From: Salinibacter altiplanensis | GTDB taxonomy: Bacteria; Bacteroidota; Rhodothermia; Rhodothermales; Salinibacteraceae | Assembly (NCBI RefSeq): GCF_002894645.1 | Contig: NZ_NCQY01000009.1 | Location: 252,433 to 316,432 of the forward strand | DNA: 64,000 nucleotides | Reading direction: 5' to 3' | Shown: in pieces, positions 3 to 8,603 of the stretch | How the letters are laid out: each line of letters begins with the position of its first letter | Numbering within the stretch: the first letter of the stretch is position 1 | Position numbers and translations under genes: made by a program | Notes under the pieces: model-generated | The model's database searches: none | Seen by the model: the letters and a program-made list of their open reading frames with translations, nothing else | What the model was told of the DNA's origin: nothing

Positions 3-2738
3 GTGACCGGCATCGCGGAGGCCCCTGACGGCACCCTCTGGTTCACGACCACCGAGCGTGGACTCCTCCGCCACGACGGCTCCGGCTTTACGCGCTTCAC
101 GACCGCCGATGGGCTGACGAGCAATCAGGCCCGGAGCATGGCGATCGATAGCACGGGCCAGGTGTGGGCCGGCAAGGGCGCAGCCCGCTTCGATGGCGAG
201 TCGTTCCACCCCACCCCAGCGGTGGAGGACGCGGACCTCGGGGGGGTGTTGAGCCTGGAGGTTGACAGGAAGGGATACCTCTGGATCGGCACGCAGCGAG
301 GCGTTTTCGTCCATCCCCCTCCGCAGCAGGGACGGGCGGACTCGCTCCACCACATCACCGACGACGACGGACTCAACGGCACGACCTCGGTCAATCTCCA
401 TCTTGACCGACGAGACAACCTCTGGGTCGGAAATGGGGGCGGATTCAATCGGATCGATGTACGCACGTACCACCAGACCGGAGAGGTGTCGGTTCGATCG
501 TACGACAAAGACATCCACCTTCGGGGCGGGGTGGCGGCCGAGCACGCAACCTACGAGGACGACAACGGCAGGCTCTGGTTCGGGACGAGCGACGGCCTCG
601 TGCGCTACAATCCCAGCGAGGATTTGGGGCAGCCTGCGCCGCCCAAGGCACACCTGACCAATGTCCAGCTGTACCCTGAGGATCTGGACTGGGGCCAGTA
701 CGCCGACGGCACCACCCCCTGGGAACAGCTTCCAACGAACCTGTCGCTTCCGTACGACAAGGATCATCTCATTTTTCGCTTCGTCGGCATCAATCACACC
801 GTTCCTGATCAGGTCACGTACAAGTACCGCCTGGAAGGACTCGACGAGAGATGGTCGCGGCCCACGGAGCGACGGCGGGCCACCTACTCCAACCTACCGC
901 CCGGCTCGTATACCTTTCAGGTCAAGGCAGCCAACAGCAACAACGTGTGGGGGCCTGTGGAGGCCTACTCTTTTGCCATCACGCCTCCCTTCTGGCGAAC
1001 CACATGGTTTTACCTCCTGTCGGCCCTCGGCTTTATCGGGCTCGTCGCAGGAGCCATTCGCTGGCGCACCCGGATCTTGGAGAAGCGAAAGCGCCGACTG
1101 GAGCGAAAGGTCGCACAGCGCACCCGTCAGCTCAAGGACGCTCAGGAAGAGGCGCTTGCGGCCTCGAAGGCCAAAAGCAAGTTTCTGGCGAACATGAGCC
1201 ACGAGATCCGCACACCGATGAACGGCGTCATCGGCTTTGCCGATCTCCTTTCCGACACCGAACTGACGACCGAGCAGCAGCAGTTCGTCGACGCGATCCA
1301 GGGCAGCGGCACTACACTCCTGTCGATTATTGACGACATCCTCAATTTTTCGAAGCTGGAGGCGGGCGAGACGGAGCTAGAGGAGACGCCCGTTCGCCTA
1401 CAGACCTGCGTGGAGGACGCTCTGGATCCGCTTGCCGCAAGGGTCGCCGAGAAGGGACTCGAGCTGACCTACCTGATTGACTCGGCGGTCCCTTCGGTCA
1501 TCCACAGCGACCGAACCCGGCTCCACCAAATTCTTCTCAACCTGCTGTCCAACGCGGCCAAGTTCACCGAGGACGGGGAAATCACACTTCGGGTACAGGT
1601 AGCGTCCTCCCCCTCTGCGCCGGACGGAAAATATGAGATTCACTTTTGTGTGCAGGACACCGGCATTGGCATCCCGGAGGAGGAGTGCGACCGGCTCTTC
1701 GAGTCGTTCAGCCAGGCCGACGCGTCGAAGAGCCGAGAGCACGGAGGCACTGGGCTCGGCCTCTCCATTTCCCAGCGGTTGGCAGAGGCGATGGGGGGAG
1801 AAATGTGGGTCGAGAGTGAGGTTGGCGAAGGGTCCACGTTCCACTTTACGATTGAGGCAGAAAAGGGCACGCAGACCGACGAAGATGGGGCCCCCACTGG
1901 CCCTTCCCCAGCCGTGGAGGGCGTGCCGGTCCTCATTGTCGCCCCCAACGAGACCGATCGTGCACTTCTCCAGCAGCAGACGGAGAGGTGGGGAATGAAC
2001 GCCACCGTCTTCGCGTCGGGGACTGAGGCGCTCCAGGAGTTGGACGCAGAGGCCCCCTACGAGGTGGCCCTGGTGGACGAGCAACTGCCGACGACGAGCG
2101 GATCTGCCCTGGCGGCCCAGATTCGAGAGCAATCGGCCGATACGTCTCTTCCGGTCGTCCTCCTCAGCCCTGCACAGGCCGCGTCGTCCGGCCTCGCAGA
2201 GCCCACCTCTCGGCTCCACAAACCCATCAAGCAGTCGAGCCTCTACGACACGCTGACTGGGCTGCTGTCCGTCCACGAGGACACCGCCCCGAGCACCGAG
2301 GACACTCCATCCTCCCCCACCGCCTCGTCCCACCGTGTGCTCCTTGCGGAAGACAATGCCGTAAACCGGGAAATGACGACACAGCTATTGACGAAAATGG
2401 GCCATGAGATTCACACCGCCCCCGACGGAATGGAGGCCCTGGAGGCCGTCCGCGAACAGACCTACGACGTCATTTTGATGGACGTGCAGATGCCGGAGAT
2501 GGACGGGCTAGAAGTGACGCGGCGCCTGCGGAACGAAGACCTACCGGGGAAGCAGCCGTACGTCGTGGCCCTCACGGCCTCTGCCACGAAGGAGGACCGC
2601 AGGCGCTGCCTGGACGCAGGGATGGACGCCTTTCTCAGCAAACCAATCCGGAGAGACGACTTGGCCGGAGTCCTCCCCCCTGACGAGCCGCCGAGGACGA
2701 CGCCCCGGGTCGAGGACCAGGCCACGCCCGACGCGTAG
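3..2738 (+). CDS. Hybrid sensor histidine kinase (5' end outside window)
   Basis: This is the C-terminal part (at least 911 residues) of a one-piece two-component system. In order: beta-propeller repeats of the two-component-regulator type (LWFTTTERGLLR, LWIGTQRGVFV, LWVGNGGGF, LWFGTSDGLVRYNP); a Y_Y_Y domain around residues 250-325; one membrane helix around 335-352; a HisKA domain with the phospho-acceptor His at 400 (MSHEIRTPMNG); a HATPase domain ending in GTGLGLSISQRLAEAMGG; and two receiver domains. The second receiver is canonical, with AEDN and phospho-acceptor Asp 827 in ILMDVQMPEMDG. The first lacks the acidic pair (APNETD) though it keeps DEQLP, so it may be a pseudo-receiver. The propeller plus Y_Y_Y region is normally periplasmic and senses a ligand. 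The apparent GTG at base 3 is only where the window opens; propeller repeats are missing upstream. It converges on the methionine operon. The ligand is unknown. Confidence 0.93.
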   Translation: MTGIAEAPDGTLWFTTTERGLLRHDGSGFTRFTTADGLTSNQARSMAIDSTGQVWAGKGAARFDGESFHPTPAVEDADLGGVLSLEVDRKGYLWIGTQRGVFVHPPPQQGRADSLHHITDDDGLNGTTSVNLHLDRRDNLWVGNGGGFNRIDVRTYHQTGEVSVRSYDKDIHLRGGVAAEHATYEDDNGRLWFGTSDGLVRYNPSEDLGQPAPPKAHLTNVQLYPEDLDWGQYADGTTPWEQLPTNLSLPYDKDHLIFRFVGINHTVPDQVTYKYRLEGLDERWSRPTERRRATYSNLPPGSYTFQVKAANSNNVWGPVEAYSFAITPPFWRTTWFYLLSALGFIGLVAGAIRWRTRILEKRKRRLERKVAQRTRQLKDAQEEALAASKAKSKFLANMSHEIRTPMNGVIGFADLLSDTELTTEQQQFVDAIQGSGTTLLSIIDDILNFSKLEAGETELEETPVRLQTCVEDALDPLAARVAEKGLELTYLIDSAVPSVIHSDRTRLHQILLNLLSNAAKFTEDGEITLRVQVASSPSAPDGKYEIHFCVQDTGIGIPEEECDRLFESFSQADASKSREHGGTGLGLSISQRLAEAMGGEMWVESEVGEGSTFHFTIEAEKGTQTDEDGAPTGPSPAVEGVPVLIVAPNETDRALLQQQTERWGMNATVFASGTEALQELDAEAPYEVALVDEQLPTTSGSALAAQIREQSADTSLPVVLLSPAQAASSGLAEPTSRLHKPIKQSSLYDTLTGLLSVHEDTAPSTEDTPSSPTASSHRVLLAEDNAVNREMTTQLLTKMGHEIHTAPDGMEALEAVREQTYDVILMDVQMPEMDGLEVTRRLRNEDLPGKQPYVVALTASATKEDRRRCLDAGMDAFLSKPIRRDDLAGVLPPDEPPRTTPRVEDQATPDA

Positions 2739-2923
2739 GCACTAGCGCTGGGGGGCCGGGCCGGTGTCAAATGGCACAAACACCCCTCGATGCCCCGCGG
2801 CATCCAGAATGGCTGCACCACTGAAGCACGGAAGGGAACGGGAGACAAAGAGCAGCCGGAGGCGGCGCAGGCCCCTCCACACTCGGGTTGGCTTCGTCGC
2901 TCCTTCCCCACGCGGGGCACCCT

Positions 2924-4075
2924 CTAGGCCGGGAGCGATGATGGGCACGCTCCCCGAGCTATCTTGAGCACGTCGGCAAGCACACCCGCCGCCGTCACGG
3001 ACGGGCCCGCCCCCGGCCCGCGCACGACGAGGGGCACGTCGGCGTACCGATCTGTCGTAATCTCGAACAGATTTTCCTGCGCCCCCAACTGTCCAACGGC
3101 CGTGCTGTCCGGCACGAGTTCGAGCCCCCCCTCAATGCCCTCCGACGAAAAGTGGCCCACGTACTGAAGCACCGCGTCCTCGGCCGCCGCGGTCGCCTGC
3201 CGCTCCTGCCAGCGCGCATCGACCCCGGAAAGGCGGCGAAGGAAGTCATCGCGGGGGGACTCAGCGAGTGCATCCGGCACCAGCGATTCGACCTGCACGT
3301 CCGAGGGCTCGATGGCGTAGCCGGCGGTACGCGCGAGGATCAGGAACTTGCGCGCCACATCGTTCCCCGAGAGGTCGTCGCGTACATCGGGTTCGGCGTA
3401 GCCGCGATCAACGGCCGCCTGCACTGCTTCACTGAAGGAACATCCGTCTCGCAGTGTACTGAACAGGAAGGTCAACGTGCCAGACACGACCCCACGGATT
3501 GAGCGCACACGGTCCCCGGTGGCAACGAGGGTCCGGACGGTCTGCACCACGGGCAGGCCCGCCCCAACGGTCGTCTCGTAGCGATACTGCACGCCCGCGT
3601 CCGCCGCGACGGCCCGCAACCGATCGAAGGCGGCCTGCGATCTCGTGTTGGCGAGCTTGCTCGGCGTGACGACGTGAATCCCTGCCTGGAGGAGCGTCTC
3701 GTAGCGGGCCGCCACGTCGGGCGCACCAGTGGCGTCGACGAAGACAAGGGGGCGTGGCGCCTCCTGTGTGAGACGATCTATGATGGCGGACCAGTCGGGC
3801 GGTGCGGCCTCTTCCATCTCGCCGAGCAGGGCCTCCGGGCCGCAATCGGGGGCGACCCAGGCGGCGCGGCGCGTCGTACAGGCGCCAATGAGACAAAGGG
3901 CGTGCCCGTCTTCCCCTCGGGCATGGATCTGTTGCACCAACGCGGTCCCAATGTCCCCCATGCCCGCCACGTACACGTGGGTCGGAGAAGGAGATGAGGA
4001 CTTTGATTCAGCGACTGGAGAAGCGAGTGAAGACGAATGAGGGGTCATCGGTTGGGCGTGTACATGAAGAGGCAT
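2924..4075 (-). CDS. hom: Homoserine dehydrogenase, ACT-less
   Basis: It reduces aspartate semialdehyde to homoserine with NAD(P)H in the cytoplasm, the last shared step before methionine and threonine. The N-terminal Rossmann motif is VAGMGDIGTALV. The catalytic and substrate region is seen in TVGAGLPVVQTVR, VVSGTLTFLFS and the signature GYAEPDVRDDLSGNDVARK. At 383 residues it ends right after the catalytic domain, like the C-terminal half of ThrA/MetL, and has no C-terminal ACT domain such as Gram-positive enzymes carry. The ATG at 4075 lies two bases past the stop of the aspartate kinase gene; an ATG at 4048 (374 residues) is an alternative and neither has a clear ribosome-binding site. 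The open frame continues upstream inside the kinase gene, but that stretch is not protein-like. It is the last gene of the metY-metX-kinase-hom operon. Confidence 0.93.
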   Translation of the reverse strand: MPLHVHAQPMTPHSSSLASPVAESKSSSPSPTHVYVAGMGDIGTALVQQIHARGEDGHALCLIGACTTRRAAWVAPDCGPEALLGEMEEAAPPDWSAIIDRLTQEAPRPLVFVDATGAPDVAARYETLLQAGIHVVTPSKLANTRSQAAFDRLRAVAADAGVQYRYETTVGAGLPVVQTVRTLVATGDRVRSIRGVVSGTLTFLFSTLRDGCSFSEAVQAAVDRGYAEPDVRDDLSGNDVARKFLILARTAGYAIEPSDVQVESLVPDALAESPRDDFLRRLSGVDARWQERQATAAAEDAVLQYVGHFSSEGIEGGLELVPDSTAVGQLGAQENLFEITTDRYADVPLVVRGPGAGPSVTAAGVLADVLKIARGACPSSLPA

Positions 4076-4077
4076 CT

Positions 4078-5025
4078 CTAAGCGAGCATCGGGGCAGGCA
4101 CGATCCGGGTTCCGGGGACCTCGGGACGGTGCGTGCATCGGACACGGAGTGGAATTCCAGCGTCGATCAGCGGGTCGAGTGTGCACGGGTGCATCCCGAG
4201 CCGTCCGGTTTTCGTCCAGGTGCGGGCCTGATCGAAGTCGATGCGTTCGAGGGGTCGCGCGTCGTCGTGCTCGTCTGGGTCGCGGGTATACAGGCCGTCC
4301 ACGTCGGTCCAGCGCTCCATCCGTTCCGCGCCCAGCGCCCGGGCAAGAACGGCCGCCGACAGGTCGCTCCCCCCTCGCCCGAGCGTCGTGGTCACGCCGT
4401 CGGCCGTCCCCCCGACGAAGCCCGGAACGATCGGGACACCGTCGGCCCGGGACCGATGCCAGTCGCGCACCCGTCGACGGGTGGGGGCCCACTGCACCGT
4501 CGCGTCGCCGTGCGCGGCGTCGGTGCAGAGGAGAGCCGTTGCATCGACACTCTGAGAGACCTGTCCGTGGGCGTCGAGCGCAGCGGCCAGCAGCGGCACC
4601 ATCAGCCGTTCGCCGGCGGCCAGCACGGCGTCACGAGCCGCGGCGGCATTCGGCCCCGCCCTCTCTCGGAGTGCGCGGTGCAGCTCCGAAAGTTCTGCCT
4701 GCAGGGCGGTGGCGTAGCGGGCCCGCAGTTCCTCGTCGGTGAGGGTGTTGGCGGCAAGGGTGTGGTAACACTGCCCCACGCGCCGTGTCCAGGCCTCAGC
4801 GGTCGCAGGGTCGGCCTGGGCTTCCTCAGCGGCCCGTACAAGGTCGTTTGTAACACCGGCCGCGGCGGACACCACCACGACCGGCCGACACGCCTCGGTG
4901 GCGGCGCAAACAATGCGGACCGCGTTGCGCACACCCTCGGCGGTGCCGACCGACGTGCCACCGAACTTGAGGACGCGGACGGGGCGAGCTGTGTGTTCGG
5001 ACGTGGGCGCGGAGGGATCAGGCAT
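4078..5025 (-). CDS. Aspartate kinase, catalytic domain only
   Basis: It phosphorylates aspartate to aspartyl-phosphate. The kinase motifs are VLKFGGTSVG at residues 18-27, VVVSAAAGVTNDLV, VPGFVGG and LGRGGSDLSAAVLARALG followed by WTDVDGLYTRDPD. The protein stops at residue 315, just after the amino-acid-kinase fold. Ordinary aspartokinases are about 400-470 residues and end in a pair of ACT domains that bind lysine, threonine or methionine; here that regulatory half is absent. The next gene, homoserine dehydrogenase, begins two bases on, so the pair resembles a split ThrA with the ACT linker lost. No frameshift remnant of an ACT domain is visible, because the downstream gene follows at once. 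Placement behind metY and metX suggests a methionine-dedicated isozyme controlled by the SAM riboswitch rather than by feedback. Other symbols (lysC, thrA) would be guesses. Confidence 0.93.
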   Translation of the reverse strand: MPDPSAPTSEHTARPVRVLKFGGTSVGTAEGVRNAVRIVCAATEACRPVVVVSAAAGVTNDLVRAAEEAQADPATAEAWTRRVGQCYHTLAANTLTDEELRARYATALQAELSELHRALRERAGPNAAAARDAVLAAGERLMVPLLAAALDAHGQVSQSVDATALLCTDAAHGDATVQWAPTRRRVRDWHRSRADGVPIVPGFVGGTADGVTTTLGRGGSDLSAAVLARALGAERMERWTDVDGLYTRDPDEHDDARPLERIDFDQARTWTKTGRLGMHPCTLDPLIDAGIPLRVRCTHRPEVPGTRIVPAPMLA

Positions 5026-5161
5026 GCGAGTTTGTTTCTCTCAGGATGAATGGTGCGTAGATGCACAGCGCGTGATACGCCGCAGCGGACGCTGCCGCAC
5101 GGTCGGTGGCCCTGCCGGAGAAGGGACGCTCCCCACCCGTCGTCCACGTCCGGGCCTCGCC

Positions 5162-6220
5162 TCAGGCCGCGACGGACGGGCGGACGGTTGCCCGCCACGC
5201 CGAGACGAGGTCGTTGAGGGCATCAAGTTCGATGAGAAACGTGTCGTGTCCGTGCGGCGCCGACAGCACCTCCAAGGTGGCCTCGGGCAGGTGCTCCGCA
5301 AGTTCCTCCTGCTCGGACAGCGGGTACAGGACGTCCGAGTCGATGCCCACGATCAGGCTCGGCTGTTCGATGCCCCGAAGCACCGCTTCGTAGTCGCCGC
5401 GGCCACGGGCCACGTCGTGGGTGTCCATCTGCCGGGTGAGGGCCACGTAGCAGTGTGCGTCGAAGCGGTCGACGAGCGTGTCGCCGTGATGGTGGAGGTA
5501 GCTCTCCACGGCGTAGGGCGTGCCGTCCTTCTCCGGCATCGCGTCGCGGCCGAAGCGCCCCTCAAAGGACGAATGGGAGCGATACGACACCATCGCCATC
5601 ATGCGGGCCGTGGCGAGGCCCTTCTTCGGGGGATCGTCCGGCGGGTAGCGGCCGCCCCGCCACTTCGAATCGGCAAAGATGGCCTGCCGCTGCGCCTCGC
5701 CCCACCCAATCTGCCAGGCCGTGTGGCGCCCGCCCACGGCGACCGGCACGACCGACCGCACGAACGGGGCCCCACTGTCGGTGGTCTCGAAGGCCCACTC
5801 CAGCACGTGCATGCCCCCCATCGATCCGCCCACGGCACACGCCACCCGCTGCACGCCGAGGGCCTCCAGCGCGCGCCGATGGAGGCGGACCGTGTCACGG
5901 GTCGTAAATGCCGGGAAGCCGGCCCCGTAGCGCTCGCCGGTGTCCGGGTTCGTCGTCACCGGCGACACCGAGCCGTAGGGGGAGCCCGGCACGTTCAGGC
6001 ACACCACGAAGTCGTCCGTAGGGTCGAGGGCACGGCCGGGCCCCAGGAGCCCGCCCCACCAGTCAGCCACGTCCGTGTCGCCGGTCAGGGCATGACACAC
6101 CAGGACGGCGTTGGTGCCCGCCGCGTTGAGCGTTCCCCACGTCTGGTACGCCACAGGCACGTCTCGCAGCACTGTGCCGTCTTCGAGGGGGAATGTTGAA
6201 ATGGTCAGCGTCTGCGACAT
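5162..6220 (-). CDS. metX: Homoserine O-acetyltransferase
   Basis: It transfers acetyl from acetyl-CoA to homoserine, the activation step of direct-sulfhydrylation methionine synthesis. It is an alpha/beta hydrolase of 352 residues, the normal MetX length. Seen directly: VLVCHALTGDTD in the N-terminal part; the nucleophile elbow GGSMGGMHVLEWA; and the acid and base of the triad in IDSDVLYP and PHGHDTFLIE near the C-terminus. The ATG at 6220 (MSQTLTISTFPLEDG) is chosen because the upstream in-frame residues are arginine/proline-rich and not conserved in style. It lies between metY upstream (121 bases) and aspartate kinase downstream (136 bases), in one direction and with no terminator seen, so it should be co-transcribed under the SAM riboswitch. 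Some MetX-like enzymes use succinyl-CoA instead of acetyl-CoA; sequence inspection alone does not exclude that. Confidence 0.94.
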   Translation of the reverse strand: MSQTLTISTFPLEDGTVLRDVPVAYQTWGTLNAAGTNAVLVCHALTGDTDVADWWGGLLGPGRALDPTDDFVVCLNVPGSPYGSVSPVTTNPDTGERYGAGFPAFTTRDTVRLHRRALEALGVQRVACAVGGSMGGMHVLEWAFETTDSGAPFVRSVVPVAVGGRHTAWQIGWGEAQRQAIFADSKWRGGRYPPDDPPKKGLATARMMAMVSYRSHSSFEGRFGRDAMPEKDGTPYAVESYLHHHGDTLVDRFDAHCYVALTRQMDTHDVARGRGDYEAVLRGIEQPSLIVGIDSDVLYPLSEQEELAEHLPEATLEVLSAPHGHDTFLIELDALNDLVSAWRATVRPSVAA

Positions 6221-6304
6221 CGGAGGGGATTGGAGATGGCGGCACGAGCAGAAGGAGGGGCGCGGGCCGCGTGAAGAGTGATGGGGGATGCGTGCAGAAC
6301 TGCC

Positions 6305-7790
<1,486 letters not shown>

Positions 7791-7822
7791 CTACGCCTTC
7801 GTGCACCGGCACGGCCGGGGAC

Positions 7823-7862
7823 AAAAGAAAAATCCCCAGCCGCCAGGAAAGCAGATGGGGAT
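7823..7862 (-). terminator. Rho-independent terminator of the SAM riboswitch
   Basis: On the minus strand ATCCCCA pairs with TGGGGAT around a 17-base loop and is followed at once by TTTTTCTTTT. It lies 26 bases downstream of the aptamer and about 110 bases before metY. This is the usual place for the SAM-dependent terminator of an S-box leader. The stem is short (7 bp), so folding should be checked. Confidence 0.65.
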
Positions 7863-7888
7863 CAACAACCAAACGGTCGTGGGTCCCA

Positions 7889-8000
7889 CTCATCTTTCCT
7901 CGACAGCGGTCGAGGCAGGATGGGGCACCTTTCCGTCGGGGGTGCCGACGGCGGTTGCCAGGGCTTCATCGGGCCTGCTCCCTTCACCCTTCTGGATGAA
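7889..8000 (-). promoter_or_regulatory. SAM-I (S-box) riboswitch aptamer
   Basis: Read on the minus strand the conserved SAM-I core is present in order: P1 5' strand TTCATC; AGAAGGGTGAAGGGA; the invariant GGCCCGATGAAGCCC then TGGCAACC; a P3 hairpin (CCGTCGG/CCGACGG); AAGGTGCCCCATCCTGC; a P4 hairpin (CCTCGAC/GTCGAGG); and the closing AAGATGAG that completes P1. It heads the metY-metX-kinase-hom transcript. Known S-box leaders bind S-adenosylmethionine and then switch the operon off, here probably through the terminator hairpins downstream. The family assignment is made by eye from the core motifs and the stems, which all form. Confidence 0.96.
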
Positions 8001-8032
8001 TGTGGTGCTACTAGTGTGTTGCAGTAGCAGCG

Positions 8033-8064
8033 TATATCTTGAACGCTGCCCTCAGCAATGTCAA
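8033..8064 (-). promoter_or_regulatory. Candidate promoter of the methionine operon
   Basis: Upstream of the aptamer the minus strand has TTGACA (8064-8059) and, 20 bases on, GATATA (8038-8033), in a relatively AT-rich gap between the cyclophilin gene and the riboswitch. The spacing is longer than the 17 bases of a standard sigma-70 promoter, so the exact -10 box is uncertain. Confidence 0.35.
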
Positions 8065-8114
8065 TGGTCAGTTATGAAGAAAGAACCAATAGGCCGACTC
8101 GACCCATCGGCCAA

Positions 8115-8603
8115 CTACTGCTTCTCGACGGTGACGCTCCGTAGCGTGTCGTTCTCCTCGATCGCATCAACCACGTCTTGTCCCTCAATCACATCGCCAA
8201 ACACGGTGTGCTTGCCGTCGAGGTGCGACTGCGGCGCCCGCGTGATGAAGAACTGGCTGCCGTTCGTGTTGGGGCCTGCGTTGGCCATCGAGAGAACGCC
8301 CGTCTCGTGCGTGAGCGGGTTCTCCTCAATCTCGTCGTCAAACTCGTAGCCCGGCCCTCCACGGCCCGTACCGGTGGGATCCCCGCCCTGTACCATGAAG
8401 CCCTCGATGACGCGGTGAAACGGAATGCCGTCGTAGAACTCCTCCTGGGCCAGGAAGGCGAAGTTGTTGACCGTGTGGGGGGCGTGCTCTGGATAGAGCT
8501 CAGCGCTGATCGTCCCCTTACTGGTCTCAAAAGTTGCTTCGTAAACGGCGTCCGTGTCAATTTGAAGGTTGGGAGGACTGTCCCACTGCGGATGGTCGGC
8601 CAT
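8115..8603 (-). CDS. Cyclophilin-type peptidyl-prolyl isomerase
   Basis: It catalyses cis-trans isomerisation of Xaa-Pro bonds during protein folding. It is a compact 162-residue single-domain cyclophilin. Active-site signatures are [19 protein letters not shown] (catalytic Arg in FHRV), [20 protein letters not shown] and [18 protein letters not shown]. No signal peptide is visible ([12 protein letters not shown]), so a cytoplasmic place is likely. The composition is very acidic for a cyclophilin, as expected of a salt-in proteome. It stands upstream of the SAM riboswitch on the same strand, with about 114 bases between its stop and the aptamer; no terminator was seen in that gap. Confidence 0.93.

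Follow-up and report, generated by a model that had tools for sequence, protein, structure and literature searches.

The last two genes of a methionine operon in Salinibacter altiplanensis, within a stretch of 64,000 nucleotides (the window; positions 252,433 to 316,432 of contig NZ_NCQY01000009.1), encode an aspartate kinase (AK) and a homoserine dehydrogenase (HSD), both without ACT domains. These are very likely feedback-insensitive enzymes for methionine that are controlled at the RNA level. Spelled out in full, the explanation we favor is that the pair feeds the methionine branch with homoserine by means of an ACT-free kinase, with control by S-adenosylmethionine (SAM) through the riboswitch of the operon, which we regard as probable. 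Domain content, gene order, the aptamer with its terminator, the intact active-site residues, and the other AKs of the genome are read directly from the DNA. On the minus strand, the order is SAM-I riboswitch, metY, metX, AK, and HSD, and we infer that the operon is co-transcribed from the riboswitch to HSD.

The AK gene (4078..5025, minus strand) encodes a monofunctional protein of 315 residues. Pfam finds AA_kinase at residues 17-296 and no second domain at E ≤ 1; the C-terminal pair of ACT domains usual in the aspartate kinase family is thus missing at this threshold. This bears out an earlier sequence-only reading of the window, which had the kinase stopping after its catalytic fold, and the domain search of both proteins that it proposed found ACT in neither. 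The same scan detects ACT in the ThrA and LysC-LysA of this genome as well as in E. coli ThrA and LysC, and finds none at E ≤ 0.1 in E. coli MetL. The protein scores above the curated cut-off of the aspartate kinase family TIGR00657 (225.8 bits, cut-off 208.7), with a match that spans only positions 5-285 of the 442 in the profile. Its AlphaFold model (pLDDT 92.6) shows a full AA-kinase fold. When this model was used for a structure search, the 42 best solved matches were all aspartokinases, led by that of Methanocaldococcus jannaschii (3c1m), with a TM score of 0.87 by query length and 0.59 by target length.

The window kinase keeps the equivalents of E. coli LysC K8, T45, E119, R198, S201, D202, and D222, positions that we take to form the aspartate/nucleotide site. 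Among 36 rows of ACT-less kinases from met operons, the equivalents of K8, S39, T45, E119, R198, S201, D202, and T221 are found in 35-36 (R198 in all 36; K8 falls in a gap in one row), and that of D222 in 35. We infer from these residues that the window kinase is catalytically active on aspartate, and expect from its domain content that it is insensitive to Lys, Thr, and Met. It falls below the cut-offs of the models for MetL (NF007003, 157.7 bits vs. 582), ThrA (NF006959, 208.0 vs. 726), and the short AKs (NF006234, 146.8 vs. 237; TIGR02078, 107.5 vs. 242.4).

The HSD gene (2924..4075 as annotated, minus strand) encodes 383 residues in which Pfam finds NAD_binding_3 and Homoserine_dh, without ACT. 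An alignment with three sister species shows conservation of the ATG that corresponds to 4048 but not of that at 4075, and a TGA lies inside the HSD match beginning at residue 2. The true start is therefore probably 4048, which would give a protein of 374 residues and a spacer of 29 bases after AK. Thus, the lack of an ACT tail in HSD stands as first proposed, but its length of 383 residues is doubtful, and the separation of two bases between the genes, which depends on the start chosen, is probably an artefact. Lack of a C-terminal ACT is usual in HSDs of the ThrA/MetL type, and only the kinase is out of the ordinary. The 12 met-operon HSDs in the tree form one branch (100/100) nested among ThrA/MetL-type HSDs (94/86), a region of the tree in which long branches are flagged. 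The best NCBIfam match of the window HSD is the ThrA model NF006959, at 348.7 bits and below the cut-off of 726; it also falls below the MetL cut-off (NF007003, 282.7 vs. 582).

The operon leader carries a SAM-I (S-box) riboswitch aptamer (7887..8002, minus strand; Rfam RF00162, 81.4 bits, gathering score 44.4), followed by the intrinsic terminator hairpin of its expression platform (7831..7863, minus strand) and then TTTCTTTT. The score of this hairpin in our own scan was reached by none of 30 letter shuffles, and the hairpin is near-identical in three sister species; a consensus scan over 2600-8300 gave no enrichment over its shuffles. In a pairing read from the sequence by eye, an antiterminator could form between the 3' strand of aptamer stem P1 and the 5' strand of the terminator. 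A terminator-like hairpin immediately follows the aptamer in 30 of the 31 leaders scanned (the window and 29 of 30 others, four leaders being from HSD-only operons); 23 of these hairpins were unmatched by any letter shuffle and 7 were matched by one to four of 30. From aptamer and hairpin together, the window leader is predicted to bind SAM and to terminate transcription in a SAM-dependent manner.

The two genes between leader and AK are metY, encoding O-acetylhomoserine sulfhydrylase (6342..7712, minus strand; TIGR01326, 675.6 bits, cut-off 495.1), and metX, encoding homoserine O-acetyltransferase (5162..6220, minus strand; NF001209, 363.8 bits, cut-off 331). We adopted the ATG at 7712 for metY and that at 6220 for metX, the longest open reading frames beginning at 7784 and 6310, respectively. 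The genome has a second SAM-I riboswitch (L092, C29:529875-529993), closely followed on its 3' side by a gene for a PLP enzyme that is 30% identical to MetY.

Next, we determined how widespread such kinases are. Searching 244 genomes of the class with a profile built from 16 of them gave 56 matches of at least 325 bits, every one in the order to which the window belongs, the next best match listed being an ACT-bearing ThrA at 295 bits. A phylum sample of 394 genomes gave 25 matches of at least 340 bits, again all within this order. Both censuses pass through a first-look filter and cover this clade, not every short AK. Fragments in G057 (C132) and G104 (C119) and pieces in G099, likely parts of ACT-less kinases, were dropped before counting. 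All 47 distinct kinases scanned among the 56 contain AA_kinase and no ACT family at E ≤ 0.1, so the absence of ACT in the window kinase is not due to chance. The 20 ACT-less rows of a 67-row tree group in a single branch (100/100), and a quick tree of 146 rows, from which L068 and L110 were excluded, likewise has one ACT-less branch (SH-aLRT 99); on these trees ACT was lost once in this clade. The branch lies beside the ThrA of the order and a ThrA-like row from Myxococcus with weak support (85/66), and AU tests reject neither a ThrA affinity (p 0.46) nor a LysC affinity (p 0.32). The proposal that the pair is a split ThrA/MetL fits HSD, by its nested position, and the kinase only weakly.

Of the 56 kinases, 40 have an aspartate site of the R198 type and 16 a GFEGSD motif. 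When the surroundings of all 40 R198-type loci were read, a metX- or metY-like frame was found to adjoin the kinase in 38, the two exceptions being G082, which ends at a contig edge, and G094, which has no such frame. HSD is also present in six of the 40 (the window, G062, G065, G066, G033, and G047), a short-chain dehydrogenase/reductase (SDR) gene precedes the kinase in 13, and 21 have neither. Conversely, HSD occurs without AK in the operons of L051-L055 and L089. Since each gene is also found singly in the operon, a simple split of ThrA is not required, and it is possible that both are halves of one ThrA. In G047, AK and HSD form one open frame (L050:3081-6296) with no ACT between them, an arrangement known from one genome that may reflect a sequencing error; in the 67-row tree, the AKs of G047 and G033 are sisters (100/100). 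A broader search by name gave at least 80 loci, mostly ordinary AKs, and is no census of ACT-less kinases; among the matches listed, L099 is the only ACT-less AK in a met operon. Outside the order, a short AK of 335 residues (L209, G180:C162) turned out to be the first part of a ThrA-like gene that is interrupted behind its kinase portion, the next frame of 491 residues carrying ACT and HSD, and a candidate in G187 is truncated by the contig end. An Ignavibacteria contig (L136) has the order metY, AK, metX, with an AK frame of 498 residues, which is of ACT-bearing length and not shortened.

A SAM-I aptamer lies upstream on the same strand, 213-3443 bases away, of 36 of the 40 R198-type kinases. 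In G071, G082, and G084 the locus is near a contig end and the leader unreadable, so that among ACT-less kinases that keep the aspartate site and have a readable leader, 36 of 37 lie downstream of the riboswitch. By comparison, it was found upstream of none of 37 ACT-bearing AKs, a hand-picked part of a longer list. The control at the RNA level that the sequence-only reading had proposed in place of allostery is partly supported by the survey of relatives, by the terminator, and by the ACT domains kept on ThrA and LysC-LysA of this genome; the claim of replacement as a cause fares less well, as discussed below.

The window genome holds four AKs: the window kinase, a short paralogue on contig C16, ThrA, and LysC-LysA. 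Both long enzymes retain ACT and score well above their family cut-offs (ThrA, NF006959, 982.5 bits, cut-off 726; LysC-LysA, NF006515, 1334 bits, cut-off 802). The pair of the met operon is therefore an extra set rather than the sole entry to the pathway. The short paralogue (L002/L071, C16:307159-308097) is ACT-less and 46% identical to the window kinase. It belongs to a clade found in this genome and 15 further ones, in which TLGFEGSD replaces TLGRGGSD, the equivalents of E. coli LysC R198 and G199 being Phe and Glu in 11 of 11 distinct rows. These GFE paralogues may use another substrate than aspartate, judging by this change. A gene resembling 2,4-diaminopentanoate dehydrogenase lies 3' of the GFE kinase in three of 11 genomes (G000, G062, and G072); within the DNA examined, the other eight have no such gene.

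In the proposed mechanism, the kinase would phosphorylate aspartate and HSD would reduce aspartate semialdehyde to homoserine, which MetX and MetY, encoded just upstream, would take to homocysteine. Loss of ACT would leave the kinase insensitive to Lys, Thr, and Met, and end-product control would be imposed on the operon by SAM, the SAM-bound aptamer allowing the adjacent terminator to form. Flux sensitive to Thr and Lys would remain with ThrA and LysC-LysA, two separate enzymes of the cell that carry ACT.

Several observations weigh against this proposal. G033 has an ACT-less metY-metX-AK-HSD operon and no SAM-I match in its genome under strict filters. In its operon region there is none at gathering scores, and none with lax thresholds upstream of or into metY; among other Rfam families, only a tRNA reaches gathering scores there, and the two weak matches seen with lax thresholds are not SAM families. 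The sequence-only reading had named an ACT-less pair in relatives without a SAM riboswitch as evidence against itself, and G033 is therefore such a case. The ACT-less GFE paralogues have SAM-I upstream in none of 16 instances. At the catalytic level, the equivalent of E. coli LysC K257 is Leu in all 47 ACT-less rows, the window kinase included, and Lys or Arg in 91 of 99 ACT-bearing rows, while I219 is replaced by Arg in all 47 vs. none of the 99; catalysis may therefore differ. The 136-base gap between metX and AK could hold an internal promoter, of which a sigma-70-type scan found none. The available passages of a review (PMC10464499) name lysine and threonine as inhibitors of aspartokinases II and III in Bacillus subtilis and E. 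coli, although E. coli aspartokinase II is elsewhere in the same review given as repressed only. In all 13 f13 relatives described below, no other strong AK match accompanies the ACT-less kinase, which hence cannot serve methionine alone there, and SAM gating would touch lysine and threonine as well. Finally, since it concerns a single clade, one loss of ACT, and a shared gene order, the association with SAM-I is close to one event, and its count cannot show that the riboswitch replaced ACT.

That the riboswitch replaced ACT as a cause is thus a possible reading. It is nearly an even matter whether ACT loss and riboswitch control are instead causally unlinked, the kinase having lost ACT once for independent reasons, or having been ACT-less already, and having sat in, or entered, an operon already under SAM-I; this concerns cause and not function, and does not compete with the proposed role of the pair. 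SAM-I matches occur in 95 of the 114 genomes of the order, 56 of which lack this kinase type, suggesting that the riboswitch came earlier or independently, and the single ACT-less clade, the survival of the pair without SAM-I in G033, and the GFE paralogues point the same way. However, the GFE paralogue may not be an AK, and the kinase is kept in only one of 19 SAM-I-free genomes vs. 39 of the 95 with SAM-I, which hints that it depends on the riboswitch, in a comparison confounded by the clustering of SAM-I-free genomes on the tree and the incompleteness of some. In three SAM-I-free genomes (G033, G048, and G046), a tRNA-Cys gene lies between metY and metX, on their strand (L049:6460-6535, L055:6276-6349, and L089:7171-7244).

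The other two alternatives concern function. Feedback control of the kinase, whether through amino acid binding to its catalytic domain, through a partner protein, or by way of an inhibited MetX, may still operate but appears unlikely. The clade-fixed L257, G258, and R219 (47/47) could form another control site, and homoserine acetyltransferase is given as methionine-inhibited in the passages available of PMC10464499, but the window kinase has no extra domain and none of the ACT domains, described as the effector sites of aspartokinases in the accessible part of PMC12925634, is left in the clade. Least credible by far is that the pair is the remnant of a decaying ThrA/MetL copy broken in two. 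The adjacency of the halves, the position of HSD among ThrA/MetL-type HSDs with a ThrA model as its best match, and the existence of a ThrA broken after the kinase in the class (G180) would suit such a remnant; against it, both frames are intact and conserved across genera, active-site residues are retained, no ACT frame follows as it does in G180, and in G047, whose AK is sister to that of G033, the two occupy one ACT-less frame. A SAM-controlled supply of homoserine for methionine thus remains the reading that we prefer.

Thirteen genomes of family f13 (L056-L061, L063, L065, L214-L216, L221, and L223) extend the picture. Their operon consists of SAM-I, a metZ-like gene, metX, an SDR gene, and the ACT-less kinase gene, except that G094 has SDR and kinase only, G083 and G084 have no metX match, and SAM-I would lie off the contig in G084. 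Several of these kinases score just below the TIGR00657 cut-off. By comparison of coordinates by eye, asd follows the kinase in all 13, and the one asd verified scores 429 bits against TIGR00978 (cut-off 301). Homoserine_dh (PF00742) was found in none of the 13 genomes, of which nine have a completeness of 90% or more; 14 of 14 control genomes were positive in this search. Threonine synthase is above its cut-off in 12 of 13, the exception being G084 (62% complete), so homoserine is presumably still made. The f13 SDR, a classical short-chain dehydrogenase (PF13561/PF00106), may be a non-homologous HSD; for two such SDRs, none of the 25 NCBIfam models among the matches listed reaches its cut-off. 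This candidate function meets several objections. Relatives 55-57% identical to it occur in the HSD-bearing genomes G000, G091, G092, and G097, that of G091 adjoining recG; in G098 and G024 neither PF00742 nor an operon SDR is found, and a relative (58-63%) sits beside recG; and G106 lacks PF00742 while two congeneric species have it, so that an absence can be a gap. We therefore only tentatively suggest that in f13 the ACT-less kinase founded an operon type that forms the whole entry to the pathway, with the SDR as a new HSD and a SAM-sensing RNA gating Met, Thr, and Lys.

Parts of this design have precedents. The closest is MetL, a methionine-branch AK-HSD encoded beside met genes (metB-metL in E. 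coli). The E. coli enzyme has no Pfam ACT at E ≤ 0.1, and the available passages of PMC12925634 state that the MetL proteins of E. coli and Vibrio natriegens are without ACT domains, report that purified V. natriegens MetL was inhibited in vitro by no amino acid tested, and propose transcriptional control of metL, likely through SAM-MetJ, by which met genes are repressed. MetL, however, is a fused protein of 810 residues in E. coli, with some 180 of these left between its AK and HSD parts, whereas the window pair is two genes with the middle wholly absent, and its SAM sensor is a cis riboswitch rather than a repressor protein. ThrA shares the type of its HSD with the window but retains ACT, while the window proteins lack ACT and fall below the NF006959 cut-off; moreover, a separate true ThrA is present in the genome. 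A precedent for short AKs is given by PRK08373 (NF006234) and TIGR02078, whose profiles of 338 and 327 positions are too short for two ACT domains, although TIGR02078 is named for Pyrococcus and the window kinase misses both cut-offs. By description in the same passages of PMC12925634, V. natriegens LysC2 is also similar, being monofunctional, said to lack ACT, and active without being inhibited by Lys, Thr, Ile, Met, or ectoine, but its gene is unresponsive to the amino acids tested. Lastly, SAM riboswitches precede hom genes in Clostridioides difficile (hom1, SAM-I; PMC11477304) and Hyphomonadaceae (hom-metXC, SAM-II; PMC4239095), in units for which the passages at hand list no AK and say nothing of ACT content.

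A SAM-gated AK-HSD of the methionine branch that escapes amino acid inhibition is therefore already known. According to our literature search, what is new is the full removal of ACT in a clade of monofunctional, riboswitch-governed kinases. By titles and the beginnings of abstracts, with most subscription journals outside its coverage, this search found no paper on the pair in Salinibacter, Rhodothermus, or Bacteroidetes, and none there on an ACT-less AK with a SAM riboswitch; the available passages of a Salinibacter ruber model (PMC6508672) make no mention of the pair. No paper on an SDR-type HSD was found by title.

Together, these findings describe a natural branch-point enzyme of the aspartate family without allosteric domains, a condition otherwise obtained in metabolic engineering through ACT mutations, and a logic that is the same as that of E. 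coli MetL/MetJ built from other parts. The order offers comparisons among operons with both enzymes, AK only, HSD only, both in one frame, no riboswitch, or an SDR in the slot of HSD, the last being a candidate for a missing enzyme. If our reading of the f13 operons is true, one SAM-sensing RNA would gate methionine, threonine, and lysine flux alike.

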